Shown here piece by piece: positions 16,179-22,231 of a DNA stretch of 64,000 nucleotides. The translations under genes were made by a program, and so were the position numbers. The DNA lies in the NCBI GenBank assembly GCA_017307505.1, contig JAFKEE010000035.1, positions 1 to 64,000 on the forward strand. Direction: 5' to 3'. Position 1 is the stretch's first letter, and the number at the start of each line of letters is the position of its first letter. Source of the DNA: Acidobacteriota bacterium. GTDB lineage: Bacteria > Acidobacteriota > Terriglobia > Bryobacterales > Bryobacteraceae. Below the pieces are notes generated by a model, which made no database searches, was not told where the DNA came from, and saw only the letters and a list, made by a program, of their open reading frames with translations.

Positions 16179-17585
16179 TCAACGGCCGGCTTCCACGATG
16201 AATGGCTGAACGTCGCCCGCCACGGTGGCGATGCCCAGGAGGCCGCGCCAGACGCTGAGGCGGGCCAACGAATCGTCGATTTCAGCCTGGGTCTGCAGAC
16301 GCTGTGCGTCGGCGACCTCGGCGATATTGCCCAGACCGGACTGATAGCGTGCGGCCGCCTGCTGCGCGGCGGCCCGGGCTGCCGAAACCTGGACAGGAGT
16401 ATTGGCGGCAATGTTGCGGGCGCCAGTCAATGTCGCAACGGCCCGGTTCCACTGGGCGCGCAGCTCGACCATCAGCTGTTCCGACTTGGCGACCTGGGCG
16501 CGAATGGTAGCCGTTTGAGCGGCCTCCCGGGCGCGAACCGACGGCAGATCCATTAAAGGAAACGTGACGGTGAATCCAACGGCGTAGTTCTGGATGCTGG
16601 GCGCCAGGCCGTTCGCCCCACCCAGGCGAGCGCCGGTCACTTCCGCGCCGCTGCCGCGCGCATACGCTGACGCCTGGAGGCTGAACTTAGGGAAATAGGA
16701 ACGCTCCAGGACCCGCAACTGGGCGCGCGCCTGCTCGAGGGTGGCGTTCTGCTCAGCGACGAAGGGATTGCCGGTCAGATTGGGCGAGGAAGGGGTAGCC
16801 TCCGGCGGGGGCTGGAGGAGTCCGCCGGCAGCAATTGCGATGTCAGCGGGCTGCATGCCGACAAACTGCGCCAGGTTCGCACGCGCGACACCAGCGGCCT
16901 GTTGCGCCTGAATCAGCTGAGTTCGGGCGGCAGCCAGCTCCGCCTCAGCCCGCGACTTGTCCGCTCCGGGGCGCAGTTGTGCGTCCACCTGGGCGGCGAT
17001 GATCTTCAGGAGAGTGCCGGCGCGATCCACGCCGGCCTGGGAGGCGCGAATGGTTTCCTGGGCCGCGAGCAGCGTGAGGTAGGCATCGGCCGCGGCCACT
17101 CCGATTTCGAATTGAGTCCGCTTCAGCGCCGCTTCCGATTGCGCCCGGGCGGCGGTGGCAGCCGCTACGCCTGCGCCGCGCAGGCCAAAGTCGAAGGGCT
17201 CCCAACTGACGAGGGCGCCAACCGCGCTGCCCCAAACAGAGCCGAGGTTGTTTGTTCCGATGACCGGGCCGGAGATGGACGGGATGACGGATTGCGGCAT
17301 CAGGAGGCCGAACACGTTGTTTCTGGTGGCCCGATTCACCTGGGCGATGCCGTCGACGCGGGGCAGGTATGCGGTGCGGGCGAGTTGAATGCCCGCCGAG
17401 GCCGCATTGATCTGCTCCTGCGAAACGTGGACGGAAGGATAGTACTTCAGAGCGGCCGAGACGGCTTGTTCCAGGCTGAGCGTGCCGGAGGCTTGGCTTT
17501 CCTGAGCCCGAGCAGAGAACGAAGCCGCTGCCGCGATCATCACGAGAATGAATGCCTGAGGGAGAGAGGTTCGCGTTTTCCGCAA
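16179..17585 (-). CDS. TolC/OprM-like outer-membrane efflux channel
   Basis: 468 residues with a signal peptide (residues 1-27, ending FSARA) followed by two outer-membrane efflux protein repeats of long amphipathic helices (LSLEQAVSAALKYYPSVHVS near the start; GLGNIAEVADAQRLQTQAEI near the end). It would form the trimeric channel through which the RND pump exports. It begins 4 bases after the stop of padR and is the second gene of the efflux operon. Confidence 0.92.
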   Translation of the reverse strand: MRKTRTSLPQAFILVMIAAAASFSARAQESQASGTLSLEQAVSAALKYYPSVHVSQEQINAASAGIQLARTAYLPRVDGIAQVNRATRNNVFGLLMPQSVIPSISGPVIGTNNLGSVWGSAVGALVSWEPFDFGLRGAGVAAATAARAQSEAALKRTQFEIGVAAADAYLTLLAAQETIRASQAGVDRAGTLLKIIAAQVDAQLRPGADKSRAEAELAAARTQLIQAQQAAGVARANLAQFVGMQPADIAIAAGGLLQPPPEATPSSPNLTGNPFVAEQNATLEQARAQLRVLERSYFPKFSLQASAYARGSGAEVTGARLGGANGLAPSIQNYAVGFTVTFPLMDLPSVRAREAAQTATIRAQVAKSEQLMVELRAQWNRAVATLTGARNIAANTPVQVSAARAAAQQAAARYQSGLGNIAEVADAQRLQTQAEIDDSLARLSVWRGLLGIATVAGDVQPFIVEAGR

Positions 17586-17589
17586 TCGT

Positions 17590-17928
17590 CTATTCGCTTT
17601 CCATGAGTTCCCGGAACAGTTCCCGAACTTTGTTCTTTGCCACTTCGAGCGCCTTCCGGCCAGCGGGCGTGGCGCGGTAGACCTTTCGCAGCGACTTGCC
17701 GTTTCGTATCTCTTTCGACCGCAGGTAACCCTTCTTTTCGAGCCCGTGAAGAAGTGGATAGAGACTGCCCGGGCTTATTCTGTAGCCGTGACGGGCCAGT
17801 TCCTCGATCATGCCGAGGCCGAAGATGGGCTCCTCGACGGCGTGGTGGAGCACGTGCAGTCTGATCAGCCCGGAGTACAGGTCGCGATCCGCATCGAACC
17901 GGTCGTGCTCAAGTTTCGCTTTCGACAT
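17590..17928 (-). CDS. PadR-family repressor of the efflux operon
   Basis: 112 residues from ATG 17928. It carries the PadR winged helix: EPIFGLGMIEELARHGYRIS, GSLYPLLHGLEKKGYL and the wing with RKVYRATPAGRKAL. PadR proteins are ligand-released repressors that often control the multidrug pump encoded beside them. It is the first gene of the operon with the three pump genes. A strong promoter lies 20-50 bases upstream and a near-perfect 18-bp palindrome covers the start codon, so autoregulation of the whole operon is expected. The start of the transcript would lie about 12 bases before the ATG, leaving no room for a normal ribosome binding site. Confidence 0.88.
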   Translation of the reverse strand: MSKAKLEHDRFDADRDLYSGLIRLHVLHHAVEEPIFGLGMIEELARHGYRISPGSLYPLLHGLEKKGYLRSKEIRNGKSLRKVYRATPAGRKALEVAKNKVRELFRELMESE

Positions 17929-17942
17929 TCGATATCGAGTGT
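17925..17942. promoter_or_regulatory. palindromic operator over the padR start codon
   Basis: ACATTCGATATCGAGTGT pairs with its own reverse complement at 8 of 9 positions, with the core TTCGATATCGAg. It spans the padR ATG (17926-17928) and the expected transcription start, where a bound PadR dimer would block transcription. Confidence 0.6.
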
Positions 17943-17946
17943 TGGC

Positions 17947-17976
17947 AGTATAGAGAGAGTTCTGACGCCGTGTCAA
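17947..17976 (-). promoter_or_regulatory. sigma-70 promoter of the padR-efflux operon
   Basis: Reading on the minus strand, TTGACA (17976-17971) is followed after 18 bases by TATACT (17952-17947). Both hexamers are at or near consensus. The expected start is near 17940, 12 bases before the padR ATG. Confidence 0.7.
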
Positions 17977-18182
17977 ATCAAGAGCGAACCGGGCGGGGTT
18001 CCGGCAGGCCGCGGATGGCTGCCTGCCGCGACCATGCTCAGCCGGCCATCGTGCTGCTGCGTATTCTGGCCGGCACCGTCTTCCTGTTGGAGGGAAACGA
18101 GAAGTTTACTCCCGAGACCCTTGTTGCGAGTCGGAGGGCAGAAGCGGCATCCGCTCGCGCGAGTTTACAACTGCTCTCGTAG
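17970..18182 (+). pseudogene. remnant of a DoxX-family membrane protein
   Basis: A 70-codon frame divergent from padR contains PAIVLLRILAGTVFLLEGNE followed by KFTPETL, which matches the first membrane helix of DoxX-family proteins (LLRLxVGxVFLxEGxxKF). The rest of the domain (three more helices) is absent: after this point the frame turns into Ala/Arg/Ser-rich text and stops. It therefore looks like a truncated copy. An intact DoxX-like gene lies at 39149. Confidence 0.5.
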
Positions 18183-18370
18183 GCGTCATCAAGACGGAGT
18201 GCGGCGTTTCGAAAGATAGCAGCCCATCCTATATATGATGCGCCGGCGAATCCTACGAGAGGAACGGCGATTGAGTGCCGAGACGGGAGAAGGGACCGCG
18301 AACTCGTTCAAGGTGAAAGCAGCGGCCAGCCAGCCTTAGATTAGAAAGGATGCGTCCGGTCCTCCGAGGA

Positions 18371-18397
18371 TGTCACATTCGAAGGCCCTATCCCGTC
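18371..18397 (+). promoter_or_regulatory. ECF41-type promoter
   Basis: TGTCACA at 18371-18377 and CGTC at 18394-18397, separated by exactly 16 bases. This is the promoter signature reported for ECF41 sigma factors (TGTCACA-N16-CGTC). It lies 28 bases before the start of the membrane protein gene whose downstream partner encodes an ECF41 sigma factor, so the operon is probably autoregulated. Confidence 0.8.
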
Positions 18398-18425
18398 TCG
18401 CTGGTGGAGACAGAAGGAGAACCCA

Positions 18426-18875
18426 TTGAAACGAACACTCGGTATTCTCGCGGCGGCCCTGGTGACTGGGGCCATCTTCGCAGCGCTTGTTTATGCAGTA
18501 CTGGCTGTCGCGCACGTTGCCGAACCGGCCGGCAAGACGGTTAGCGGGTTAACCTCCCGGCGGCTTTGGGCCACTGCCTCGGCCGGGTTGGCGCTGGCCG
18601 GTATCGTCCTCGGCGGGCTTGCTCTGGCGCGGCCCTCGAGCCGATTGGGCATCGAGTCCGGACGCTTTGGAGCGGTTGCGGCGCTGGCCGCGGGTTTGAT
18701 TGCCGGGGTGAACGGGGGCCTGAATGTGGCAGTCGCCACAGGCGGTCCCGGTACGGGCAATGGCGTGGTGGGCGGCGCCGCGGCTTTTGTTCTGGGACTG
18801 ATCGCGGTGGCCCTGGGCGGGCGGGCCCTGGTGCGGACTCGCAGGACCGTATTGCAACCGGGGCGAGCGGCGTGA
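18426..18875 (+). CDS. small membrane protein, DUF6223-like
   Basis: 149 residues starting at TTG 18426 with AGGAG 7 bases upstream. It has four hydrophobic helices (LGILAAALVTGAIFAALVYA; ATASAGLALAGIVLGGLALA; FGAVAALAAGLIAGVNGGL; VVGGAAAFVLGLIAVALGG) and a basic C-terminus, the pattern of DUF6223 proteins of unknown function. It is the first gene after the ECF41-type promoter and its stop codon overlaps a GTG that could start the sigma factor gene. It may act upstream or downstream of the sigma factor in an envelope response; that is inference. Confidence 0.7.
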   Translation: MKRTLGILAAALVTGAIFAALVYAVLAVAHVAEPAGKTVSGLTSRRLWATASAGLALAGIVLGGLALARPSSRLGIESGRFGAVAALAAGLIAGVNGGLNVAVATGGPGTGNGVVGGAAAFVLGLIAVALGGRALVRTRRTVLQPGRAA

Positions 18876-18889
18876 GTTCCCCGGGGACG

Positions 18890-19816
18890 ATGGCCGATCC
18901 TGCCGCGAGCTTTGAGCCTTACCGCCGCCGCCTGCTCGGCCTGGCATACCGCATGCTTGGGTCGATGGCCGACGCCGAGGACGCGGTTCAGGAGACCTAT
19001 CTGCGGTGGCACGCGTCCGACCGAGGCAGGGTGTTGGAACCGAAGGCGTTTCTCATGACGACGACTACTCGAATCTGTCTCGACATGCTGACCTCGGCCC
19101 GCGCCCGGCGGGAGGAGTATATCGGCCCCTGGTTGCCGGAACCCGTTGCCGATACCGAAATGCTGGCCCCGGATAGCCGCACGGAGATGGCGGAGGACCT
19201 TTCCATTGCCCTGCTGCTCCTCCTCGAGCAATTGTCGCCGCTGGAACGGGCCGCTTTTGTGCTCCACGAGGTATTTGATTTCTCGTTCCGTGAGATCGCA
19301 CAGGCGCTGGAGCGCAGCGAGGCGGCCTGCCGTCAACTGGCAACCCGCGCGCGGACGCGCATTCGGGAGGGGCGGCCTCGCGGTGTTGCGCCGACGGCTC
19401 GTCCGAGTGAGGCCGATGCGAAACATGTCCAACTCATGTCGGCCTTCGCCGCCGCGACCCAGGCCGGGGATCTGGGCGGGCTGATCCAGTTGCTGGCAAG
19501 CGACGCGCGTGTGATTACGGACGGCGGCGGGAAGGTGCGATCGGCGTTGAAGCCGATTGAAGGCGCTGAACGGGTGGCACAGTTCCTGGTGGAGGTCACT
19601 CGGAAACGACCCGATGCGTGGTGGCGGGATGATTTCAGACCTCGCTTCGGGACCGTGAACGGGCTGCCGGCCATCATCGTGGACGCACCAGACGGGCCCG
19701 TACAAACCACGGCGTTCGAAATCGACGGCGGCGTGATTACCGCGTTGTACATCGTGCGTAATCCGGACAAGCTGCGGCATCTGGGGCGGAACCGGGCTCA
19801 GCGTCCGTCCGAGTGA
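18890..19816 (+). CDS. ECF41-family sigma factor (SigJ-like)
   Basis: 308 residues from ATG 18890; a GTG at 18872 overlapping the upstream stop (GTGA) is an equally possible, coupled start. Region 2 reads LLGLAYRMLGSMADAEDAVQ and region 4 reads SPLERAAFVLHEVFDFSFRE with an HTH after it. The C-terminal third is a fused SnoaL-like (NTF2-fold) domain with DGGGKVRSA and VRNPDKL, the motifs typical of ECF41. In this family the C-terminal domain replaces an anti-sigma factor and controls activity. The matching promoter at 18371 supports autoregulation. A VOC protein gene follows 53 bases downstream. Confidence 0.9.
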   Translation: MADPAASFEPYRRRLLGLAYRMLGSMADAEDAVQETYLRWHASDRGRVLEPKAFLMTTTTRICLDMLTSARARREEYIGPWLPEPVADTEMLAPDSRTEMAEDLSIALLLLLEQLSPLERAAFVLHEVFDFSFREIAQALERSEAACRQLATRARTRIREGRPRGVAPTARPSEADAKHVQLMSAFAAATQAGDLGGLIQLLASDARVITDGGGKVRSALKPIEGAERVAQFLVEVTRKRPDAWWRDDFRPRFGTVNGLPAIIVDAPDGPVQTTAFEIDGGVITALYIVRNPDKLRHLGRNRAQRPSE

Positions 19817-19869
19817 CCCAGAACCGATCCATGTGAAGTGGGAGAGCCAGTGTCGATTGGAGATCAGCC

Positions 19870-20316
19870 ATGAAGCGATCCATACCAGAAGGCGGGCCGC
19901 AGGGACAGGGGATGTCTGAAGCGACGATGCCGCACGTGGTGGGATTTCGGGGCGTGCGATACCAGGTGAAGGACGTGCAGAGAGCGATCGAGTTCTACAC
20001 CGGGACACTGGGATTCCGGCTCGACGGCAAGGCACTGCCCGCGTTCGGCCAGGTTTCGATTGCGGGCCTTCCGCTCATCCTGAGCGGTCCAGGTGCATCG
20101 GGCTCCCTGCCGATGCCCGATGGGCGCACGCAAGAACCGGGCGGCTGGAACCGCGTCCTGCTTCAGGTGCGGGACCTGCCTGCCTGCATCGCTGCCCTGA
20201 AACAGGCGGGGGTCGGCTTCCGAAACGAAATGGAGGCAGGGCCGGGCGGCAGACAGATTCAAATTGAAGATCCTGACGGAAATCCTATTGAGCTGTTCGA
20301 ACCGGCCGCAGGCTGA
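19870..20316 (+). CDS. VOC/glyoxalase-fold protein
   Basis: 148 residues; GGAG lies 9 bases before ATG 19870. The core (about residues 22-145) shows the vicinal-oxygen-chelate fold: GVRYQVKDVQRAIEFYTGTL, GFRLDG, and the closing IQIEDPDGNPIELFEP with the C-terminal metal-ligand glutamate. Members include glyoxalases, dioxygenases and antibiotic-binding proteins, and the sequence does not decide among them. It follows the ECF41 gene on the same strand and may belong to its regulon, since small redox or detoxification enzymes are common neighbours of ECF41. Confidence 0.82.
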   Translation: MKRSIPEGGPQGQGMSEATMPHVVGFRGVRYQVKDVQRAIEFYTGTLGFRLDGKALPAFGQVSIAGLPLILSGPGASGSLPMPDGRTQEPGGWNRVLLQVRDLPACIAALKQAGVGFRNEMEAGPGGRQIQIEDPDGNPIELFEPAAG

Positions 20317-20448
20317 GCGGCCGCAGGGGCTGGAGGCGGGTGTGATGGGCGTGGCGAGCCGCAGGTGCAGCAACTGGTAGCGTGCTGCCTGCGATCGGGC
20401 AGGAGGGGTCTGCGATTTAAGAAGTCCACTGAAGTCCCGGGTGGTTTT

Positions 20449-21759
20449 TCAGGGGCGCGTCCAGTAGTCCGGCAGGCCGTTTCTGGTGGCGCGCAGGATC
20501 TCGAGGATGGAGCGGCGGTCGGCGCTCGAAAGCGACGCGAACGTGGGGGTTTCGTCCTGGCCGGAGAGGATCTGCCAGAGCCGTTGGTAGACACGGTCTT
20601 TCATGGGCTGCGGCATCTGGTCGAAGGCTTCGGAGTAGATGAGGTAGCTGCAGGGGTAGCGGAAGAGGCGGGTCTTCAGGTCGAATTCCCGGAGGGAGCG
20701 GCCGGCGCCATCCCTGGGGCCCTGCCGGGCAAACGATTCCGCGAAGCCCGAGACTCCGGTGACGGGCTCAGTGAGGCGCGTTTCCTCAGCGAAGAGCATG
20801 TATTTCACCAGTTCCTCGGCCGCGGAGTTGATGCGGCGGACGGTGGATTCGCTGAGTTTCTCTGCCGGTTGCTGCAGGAACTTGCTCATCACGGCGTTGT
20901 CGTGGAGGGCGAGGCGCGCTTCGAAGCCGACGCGAGTGATCAGGTTCGTCATGCGGGTCTGATGCTCGAGGACCATCAGCGCAACGATGTCGCTGTGGGG
21001 CGTCAGGTAGGCTCCGGTATCGAAGCGAAACCGCAGATCGGTCACATTCTGGCCATTGGGCTCCAGCGTGACGGGCCCCTCGCGCGTCTGCACGATCGCA
21101 TTGCCCATATGCGTCTGGGCGCCATGCTTACCGGTGACGTACCATCCGCCCCACCTTTCCTTGAGGGGGCTGCGATGGTCGGTGACATAGGAACCGGCCT
21201 GAAAGACGGGCATTCCGGATTGGGACGGATAGACAGAGCGGACCAGCAGGCCAGGCACCCCCACGGTGGAGCCATTCTGATGACATTGGAGGCAGGTGTC
21301 CTGTCGGTCGAAGTGCGGCTTGCCTGTGGCCTCCTGGTCGAGGGTGTAAAAGATCACGCCCTGCCTGGGATCGACTGCGGCGAACTCGAGGACGTCGCCC
21401 CCGCGCACCCAGCCGACCGCGACATTGTCATTGAAGTAAATGGCGCGCGGAAGCTTGGGTGCGATGCGGGTGGCCTGAAAACTGGTTTTCGAGAAGACAA
21501 GAACCTGGGATGCCGGGCGCACGGTCAAGGCTTCGAGGATGGATTCCAGGTACCCGTGGCCCTCGCGGAATCTCAGTTTCACATTCCCGGAGTCGATGCG
21601 TTTCTGGAGACGCGCGACCGCGTCATCGACAGGCAGGGTGGCGTACTGGATCGCGGCATGATCGAGCGGCACCACATAAGAGCCTTCCAGGCCCGCGATG
21701 GCGACGGCAGCAAGGGCCAAACCGATGCAGAGTACGCAGCTAATTTGCCGTTTGGACAT
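20449..21759 (-). CDS. secreted haem (CxxCH) protein of unknown function
   Basis: 436 residues from ATG 21759 with a signal peptide or N-terminal anchor (residues 5-23). One c-type haem motif, DTCLQCHQNG, lies near residue 155. The surrounding sequence (YVTDHRSPLKERWGGWYVTG; MTNLITRVGFEARLALHDNA) is shared by uncharacterised cytochrome-like proteins I know from Acidobacteria and Planctomycetes but cannot name. The gene overlaps the upstream Rrf2 regulator gene by 20 bases, so the two are co-transcribed and probably translationally coupled. That suggests control by redox or nitric-oxide stress, if the Rrf2 protein senses these. Confidence 0.78.
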   Translation of the reverse strand: MSKRQISCVLCIGLALAAVAIAGLEGSYVVPLDHAAIQYATLPVDDAVARLQKRIDSGNVKLRFREGHGYLESILEALTVRPASQVLVFSKTSFQATRIAPKLPRAIYFNDNVAVGWVRGGDVLEFAAVDPRQGVIFYTLDQEATGKPHFDRQDTCLQCHQNGSTVGVPGLLVRSVYPSQSGMPVFQAGSYVTDHRSPLKERWGGWYVTGKHGAQTHMGNAIVQTREGPVTLEPNGQNVTDLRFRFDTGAYLTPHSDIVALMVLEHQTRMTNLITRVGFEARLALHDNAVMSKFLQQPAEKLSESTVRRINSAAEELVKYMLFAEETRLTEPVTGVSGFAESFARQGPRDGAGRSLREFDLKTRLFRYPCSYLIYSEAFDQMPQPMKDRVYQRLWQILSGQDETPTFASLSSADRRSILEILRATRNGLPDYWTRP

Positions 21760-22192
21760 GACAGAGAGATTCCGTGTTTTCGCAGAGAGGACGGATGGGG
21801 CTGGGGTTGGCCAGGATGGCGGCGATGGTGGTGGAACGGAAGGCCTCTTCCACGACACCGACCGCCTCATCCAGTTTGCGGTGGAGCGGGCAGAGCGAGG
21901 AATGCGACTTGAGGCCGAGCGGGCAGTGATTGATGCGCCGCAGGGGATCGACGATGGAGATCACATCCAGAACGGTGATTGTTTCCGGAGAGCGAGCGAG
22001 GGTGAAACCGCCGTGGCGGCCGCGCTGGGCGGTGACGAGTCCGGCTCGGGTGAGCGGCTGCAGGACCTTGTTCAGGTAGTCCTGGGGGACCAGAGTACGG
22101 GCGGCGATGGCTTGGGTGGTCCAGGGGGCGCTCTGGTCCGCGGCGAGGACGACGATGGCGCGGAGGGCGTATTCCACGGTCTGGGAGAGCAT
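21740..22192 (-). CDS. Rrf2-family transcriptional regulator
   Basis: 150 residues from ATG 22192. The winged helix is typical of Rrf2: YALRAIVVLA, IAARTLVPQDYLNKVLQPLT and RGRHGGFTLAR. Family members IscR, NsrR and RirA bind Fe-S clusters through three cysteines; here only two cysteines are present in the cluster loop (INHCPLGLKSHSSLCPLH), so cluster ligation is uncertain. A perfect dyad sits inside its own promoter, pointing to autorepression. It heads a two-gene unit with the haem protein. Confidence 0.88.
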   Translation of the reverse strand: MLSQTVEYALRAIVVLAADQSAPWTTQAIAARTLVPQDYLNKVLQPLTRAGLVTAQRGRHGGFTLARSPETITVLDVISIVDPLRRINHCPLGLKSHSSLCPLHRKLDEAVGVVEEAFRSTTIAAILANPSPIRPLCENTESLCHVQTAN

Positions 22193-22202
22193 GGGCTTTT
22201 CG

Positions 22203-22231
22203 ATACTATGATATCTGGATAAAGATATCAA
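22203..22231 (-). promoter_or_regulatory. rrf2 promoter with embedded perfect dyad
   Basis: On the minus strand TTGATA (22231-22226) and TAGTAT (22208-22203) are spaced by 17 bases. The arms TGATATCT and AGATATCA form a perfect inverted repeat with a 6-base spacer (22209-22230) filling the region between -35 and -10. The predicted start lies only about 4 bases before the ATG at 22192, so the message would be almost leaderless. Confidence 0.65.

Follow-up and report, generated by a model that had tools for sequence, protein, structure and literature searches.

What does a gene for a small membrane protein of family DUF6223 do in an operon with an ECF41 sigma factor? The question is raised by the analysed stretch of DNA from a soil-dwelling Acidobacteriota bacterium of the family Bryobacteraceae (hereafter the window; 64,000 nucleotides (nt), positions 1 to 64,000 of contig JAFKEE010000035.1, assembly GCA_017307505.1), in which an ECF41-type promoter motif is followed by a DUF6223 gene, an ECF41 gene and a VOC-family gene. 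An earlier note on this DNA read the locus as an ECF41 autoregulatory promoter in front of a DUF6223-like/ECF41 pair and possibly as a membrane-input version of the system. Our analysis bears out the former, and we consider it likely that this is an autoregulated ECF41 operon with DUF6223 as its regulated output. A COE target (carboxymuconolactone decarboxylase (CMD), oxidoreductase or epimerase) is a common but not a defining feature of ECF41 sigma factors, 34% of the ECF41 genes in Wecke et al. (2012; PMC3426412) being solitary; operons with a target gene preceding the ECF41 gene behind the same type of promoter are described for B. licheniformis, R. sphaeroides, and S. meliloti (PMC3426412, PMC6180224).

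The motif, TGTCACATTCGAAGGCCCTATCCCGTC, lies on the plus strand at 18371–18397, with the -35 element TGTCACA at 18371–18377, the -10 element CGTC at 18394–18397 and a spacer of exactly 16 nt, which is the ECF41 signature recognised before. It ends 28 nt from the TTG start codon of the DUF6223 gene (18426–18875, plus strand), which is preceded at a distance of 6 nt by an AAGGAG ribosome-binding site (18414–18419, plus strand) and lines up with the MKRT/MRRT start of related proteins in the alignment. The gene encodes a four-helix membrane protein of 149 amino acids (aa) that is a clear member of PF19733 (E 1.9e-28; 99.1 bits, cut-off 27.4), with four hydrophobic segments in the hydropathy profile and a tail of ~15 residues, confirming the DUF6223-like assignment. 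Its stop codon and the start codon of the sigma gene (18872–19816, plus strand, 314 aa) share the tetranucleotide GTGA at 18872–18875, an overlap that predicts translational coupling of the two genes. A VOC-family (glyoxalase-fold) gene, also mentioned in the earlier note, follows on the plus strand after a gap of 53 nt (19870–20316; PF00903, E 7.3e-13) and is probably the third gene of the operon.

Judged by its sequence, the sigma factor is an ECF41. It matches NF007214 (2.6e-104) and TIGR02957 (1.5e-99) as well as PF04542 (4.9e-14) and PF08281 (3.1e-14), and it carries WLPEP in the linker between sigma2 and sigma4 (GPWLPEPV in protein P0002). A C-terminal extension spans residues ~170–314, and the match to the solved structure of M. 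tuberculosis SigJ (5xe7, 6.8e-49) covers residues 11–303 including the SnoaL-like domain, although the Pfam SnoaL_2 match of the C-terminus is weak by itself (E 0.035). The protein also contains DGGGK and NPDKL, two of the three published ECF41 extension motifs. With the ECF41/COE systems of Wecke et al. (PMC3426412), the window locus has in common the sigma factor type (WLPEP linker and C-terminal extension), the TGTCACA-N16-CGTC promoter (published tolerance N16(+/-1)) and the order of target before sigma gene, the commonest operon form there (29%, Table 4), whereas its partner is DUF6223, with no CMD match nearby and a VOC gene downstream. Likewise, S. meliloti SMb20029-rpoE9 is described in PMC6180224 as a target and ECF41 operon with TGTCACA-N16-CGTC and a mapped start site, but its target is a CxxC carboxymuconolactone decarboxylase, unlike the DUF6223 of the window. 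No conserved cysteine was seen in the DUF6223 alignment, so the family would operate without the thiol chemistry of the CxxC CMD partners.

By count alone the promoter motif is weak, and it is its position at ECF41 operons that makes it strong. With spacers of 14–18 nt, the match at 18371–18397 is the sole one in the window, where shuffling gives 0.14 expected matches and at least one match in 14 of 100 shuffles. Across the 9.39-Mb genome, spacers of 15–17 nt yield seven matches compared to nine for the reversed control, which rules out that the motif by itself proves a promoter. The genome-wide scan at the published spacer of 16 nt, as proposed earlier, found only three exact matches (C14:109131, C16:18371 in the window, and C32:57589), and all three lie just upstream of the three genes of this genome that exceed the NF007214 (SigJ/ECF41) cut-off, beginning 519–648 nt 5' of the sigma-domain matches. 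Under uniform placement, the probability of finding all three in a 700-nt same-strand zone upstream of the three genes is ~1.4e-12, with the zone chosen after seeing the data. This placement supports a promoter of the autoregulatory ECF41 type. In the other two operons the first gene encodes a carboxymuconolactone decarboxylase (PF02627, 1.2e-22 and 1.5e-8), and since these paralogous operons have a CMD gene between motif and sigma gene, DUF6223 sits in the target slot.

The motif also tracks the adjacency of ECF41 beyond this genome. Full-length DUF6223 proteins were found in 16 distinct genomes, and in 11 of them, in three gene orders, an ECF41-type gene adjoins, which answers the call for a co-occurrence survey. 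The order of DUF6223 before ECF41 is found at eight loci (the window, L037, L039, L040 from Terriglobus albidus, L044, L045, L049, and L050), the reverse order at two (L038, Anaerolineales; L041, Caldilineaceae), and a divergent arrangement at one (L043, Vicinamibacteria); the remaining five (L008, L009, L042, L046, and L088, with L042 and L088 near contig ends) have no adjoining ECF41 gene. TGTCACA-N16-YGTC occurs within the 300 nt upstream of the first gene in all 10 co-directional operons (nine with CGTC, L038 with TGTC), which are related and therefore not independent trials. It is absent upstream of all five DUF6223 genes that have no adjoining ECF41 (for L042, just 121 nt were available) and occurs in 6 of 50,000 shuffled 300-nt regions. 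In all eight operons with DUF6223 first, the distance from motif to start codon is 28–31 nt despite divergence in the central part of the spacer, and the 4-nt overlap recurs in the others of this order (leaving aside L045, where a longer, mechanically called open reading frame includes the sigma start). In the divergent L043, TGTCACC-N16-CGTC faces the sigma gene, and inspection by eye revealed CGTCACC-N16-CGTC toward DUF6223.

These 16 genomes emerged from samples in which PF19733 is rare. The phylum sample (396 genomes) yielded four genomes with a match over the cut-off and the class sample (399 genomes) six, all six in the coupled form. There were three among 350 genomes for the phylum of G749 (Anaerolineales; one marginal), two among 298 for the class of G752 (one marginal), and one among 240 for the phylum of G757. 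A scan of genome contigs returned 10 loci; the first contig scan with a single DUF6223 protein as query gave no match, nor did a tblastn search of the window protein (P0001) against plasmids. Genomes judged duplicates by their size and identical contig coordinates were merged (G601 and G748, G744 and G755, G281 and G751), and the 16 exclude both PF19733 matches of ~20–30 bits, mostly in longer reading frames, and the marginal matches over the cut-off in G1071 (29.8 bits, 429-aa frame) and G1149 (27.6 bits with its neighbours, 348-aa frame). The survey covered groups other than the Actinomycetota, which hold 68% of the ECF41 proteins in PMC3426412. Given its recurrence outside the genome of the window, the pairing probably constitutes a genuine functional unit. 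Among ECF41 genes it is indeed uncommon, as previously assumed: a class-wide sample of 151 genomes contained 20 ECF41-like genes (E <= 1e-60) in 13 genomes, with neighbours (phmmer, 1.5-kb flanks) that include CMD in nine cases (three co-directional, six divergent), DUF6223 in one (the window), and neither in 10.

The DUF6223-linked sigma factors do not share a single origin in the tree. Among 44 ECF41-type proteins, the 11 linked ones need four label changes, at least three of which are forced by well-supported branches, and placing them in one clade costs 249.9 log-likelihood units and is rejected (p-AU 0.0026). From these sequences, the pairing would thus have arisen more than once, or DUF6223 would have been moved beside different sigma genes. 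In the tree, the Vicinamibacteria partner (L080; ECF41-like, 238 bits, under the NF007214 cut-off) groups with sigma factors that lack WLPEP, DGGGK and NPDKL and are mostly divergent to CMD genes. In this ECF41-like group as a whole (L107–L111, L118, L079, and L080), without WLPEP or NPDKL and mostly divergent to CMD genes, most members keep TGTCACA-N16-CGTC, the promoter being shared despite the loss of the signature motifs.

A VOC protein resembling that of the window (P0003) adjoins DUF6223 in 8 of the 16 genomes, three of which (L042, L046, and L088) have no adjoining ECF41, so that the association between VOC and DUF6223 seems not to depend on the sigma factor. In the alignment, inspected by eye, P0003 has G and R at the two His positions and keeps the Glu (IELF) of what we presume to be the glyoxalase metal ligands (two His and one Glu), and the replacement of the His ligands may point to a role in binding instead of metal-dependent catalysis. 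In L008 and L046, where ECF41 does not adjoin, an AraC-type regulator carrying a DUF6597 domain is encoded upstream of DUF6223 and is a possible alternative regulator of the module.

Taken together, we favour the following course of events. The SnoaL-like domain fused to the C-terminus of the ECF41 sigma factor would keep it restrained until a signal to this domain allows the sigma factor to direct RNA polymerase to the promoter at 18371–18397. Transcription from there would cover the DUF6223 gene, the sigma gene translationally coupled to it and, probably, the VOC gene. DUF6223 would be the regulated output, as its target position behind the promoter indicates, replacing the carboxymuconolactone decarboxylases of other ECF41 operons, and together with the VOC protein it would probably have a membrane-linked protective or detoxifying role. 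Several observations weigh against this interpretation. The genome count of the motif does not exceed that of its reversed control, and the shared operon and the overlap of DUF6223 with the sigma gene would equally fit a regulatory partner. The protective role is suggested only by analogy and by the VOC neighbour, which is present in just half of the 16 genomes. Finally, AlphaFold2 gave two models of DUF6223 with low mean pLDDT (58.6 and 63.8), too weak to derive a function from the fold. A profile search of the PDB with the DUF6223 alignment gave acetolactate synthases as the best match (0.063), which we took as chance.

The regulatory partner is the strongest competitor, though an unlikely one. 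According to this proposal, which is the membrane-input version of the earlier note, DUF6223 responds to a signal from the membrane or envelope and directly controls ECF41, acting either as a membrane anti-sigma factor or as a site at which the SnoaL-like domain docks. The recurrent pairing and the translational coupling are what it would predict, and polar or charged positions invariant across the 16 DUF6223 proteins (e.g. T38, R46, N112, and R137) could serve a signal. However, neither Pfam nor hydropathy revealed a cytoplasmic anti-sigma domain in the DUF6223 protein, which consists of four hydrophobic segments and a short tail, and the classical membrane anti-sigma factor is thereby rejected. 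Moreover, aligned proteins from the DUF6223-first operons differ visibly from unlinked ones at just ~10 C-terminal residues, the stretch by the gene overlap. Five of the 16 DUF6223 genes have no adjoining ECF41, and none of the four of these genomes that were searched (all except G1029) contains an ECF41 over the cut-off, with weaker ECF41 matches of 155 and 188 bits in two of them. Unrelated ECF41 lineages pair with DUF6223, the gene order is free, and the sigma factor retains its own regulatory domain. PMC3426412 further reports that the B. licheniformis partner YdfG had no effect on sigma activity. The membrane-input proposal is thus not supported, and DUF6223 in its target slot is better read as the output of the operon.

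It is more improbable still that DUF6223 is a passenger, with ECF41 operons randomly acquiring small stress-related genes and the pairing having no specific meaning. ECF41 partners are many, and the fourth ECF41-like gene of the genome (L117, C32:12582, at ~12.5–14 kb on the minus strand) follows the gene of an unrelated small membrane protein (143 aa, matching no Pfam family), the two genes overlapping by TGATG, so that such neighbours of ECF41 are not limited to DUF6223. Upstream of this pair we noted TGTCACA-N17-GGTC by eye, and a homologous pair is found in G601 (L077). Random acquisition is at odds with the three gene orders and separate sigma lineages in which the DUF6223 pairing occurs, and with the fact that DUF6223 adjoins an ECF41-type gene in all 11 genomes in which a full-length copy was found to coexist with an ECF41 over the cut-off (in G754, the adjoining one is itself under it). 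Least probable of all is a chance motif with the operon transcribed from another promoter, since the unexceptional counts in window and genome are outweighed by the placement of all three exact matches at ECF41 operons, by the nearly constant distance to the start codon despite the diverged spacer, and by the lack of any sigma70-like promoter on the plus strand between 17900 and 20460.

The surroundings of the operon include further regulatory genes. Divergently upstream, a PadR-type (PadR/Rv3488-like) regulator is encoded on the minus strand (17590–17976), with a near-perfect sigma70 promoter (TTGACA-N18-TATACT); its start also has a palindrome around TCGATATCGA (17925–17942), and beside it the minus-strand genes at 12–17.6 kb resemble an RND efflux operon by eye. 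A 67-aa open stretch on the plus strand (17979–18179), QPAIVLLRILAGTVFLLEGNEKF..., resembles by eye the start of a DoxX protein, while Pfam assigned this fragment to no family. Downstream, we noted by eye a protein of 473 aa (20449–21870, minus strand) in which TCLQCH forms a heme-type CxxCH motif, and an Rrf2-like regulator on the same strand (21740–22231). An Rfam scan of 17500–20600 gave no matches.

The known part of this locus is thus the ECF41 autoregulatory operon type, and the new part, within the literature searched, is DUF6223 in its target slot. The Pfam entry PF19733 has no function on record, and in the literature searched, outside which lies the 2021 ECF reclassification, no paper was found to name DUF6223 or PF19733. 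The pairing ties this uncharacterised membrane family to a defined regulator, and a named strain carrying the cassette, Terriglobus albidus DSM 26559 (L040), makes it experimentally testable. In a more speculative view, which we hold to be a shade less probable than direct control of ECF41 by DUF6223, DUF6223 and VOC would form an undescribed membrane stress-response module that was independently captured by ECF41 lineages and AraC-type regulators; in its boldest form, DUF6223 would also feed a membrane signal to the SnoaL-like domain and, if true, this would supply the input that published ECF41 work had not found. PMC3426412 reports no reproducible phenotype from ECF41 deletion and phenotype work. 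As ECF41 sigma factors are widespread, a recurrent non-enzyme partner such as DUF6223 offers a new handle on their role.
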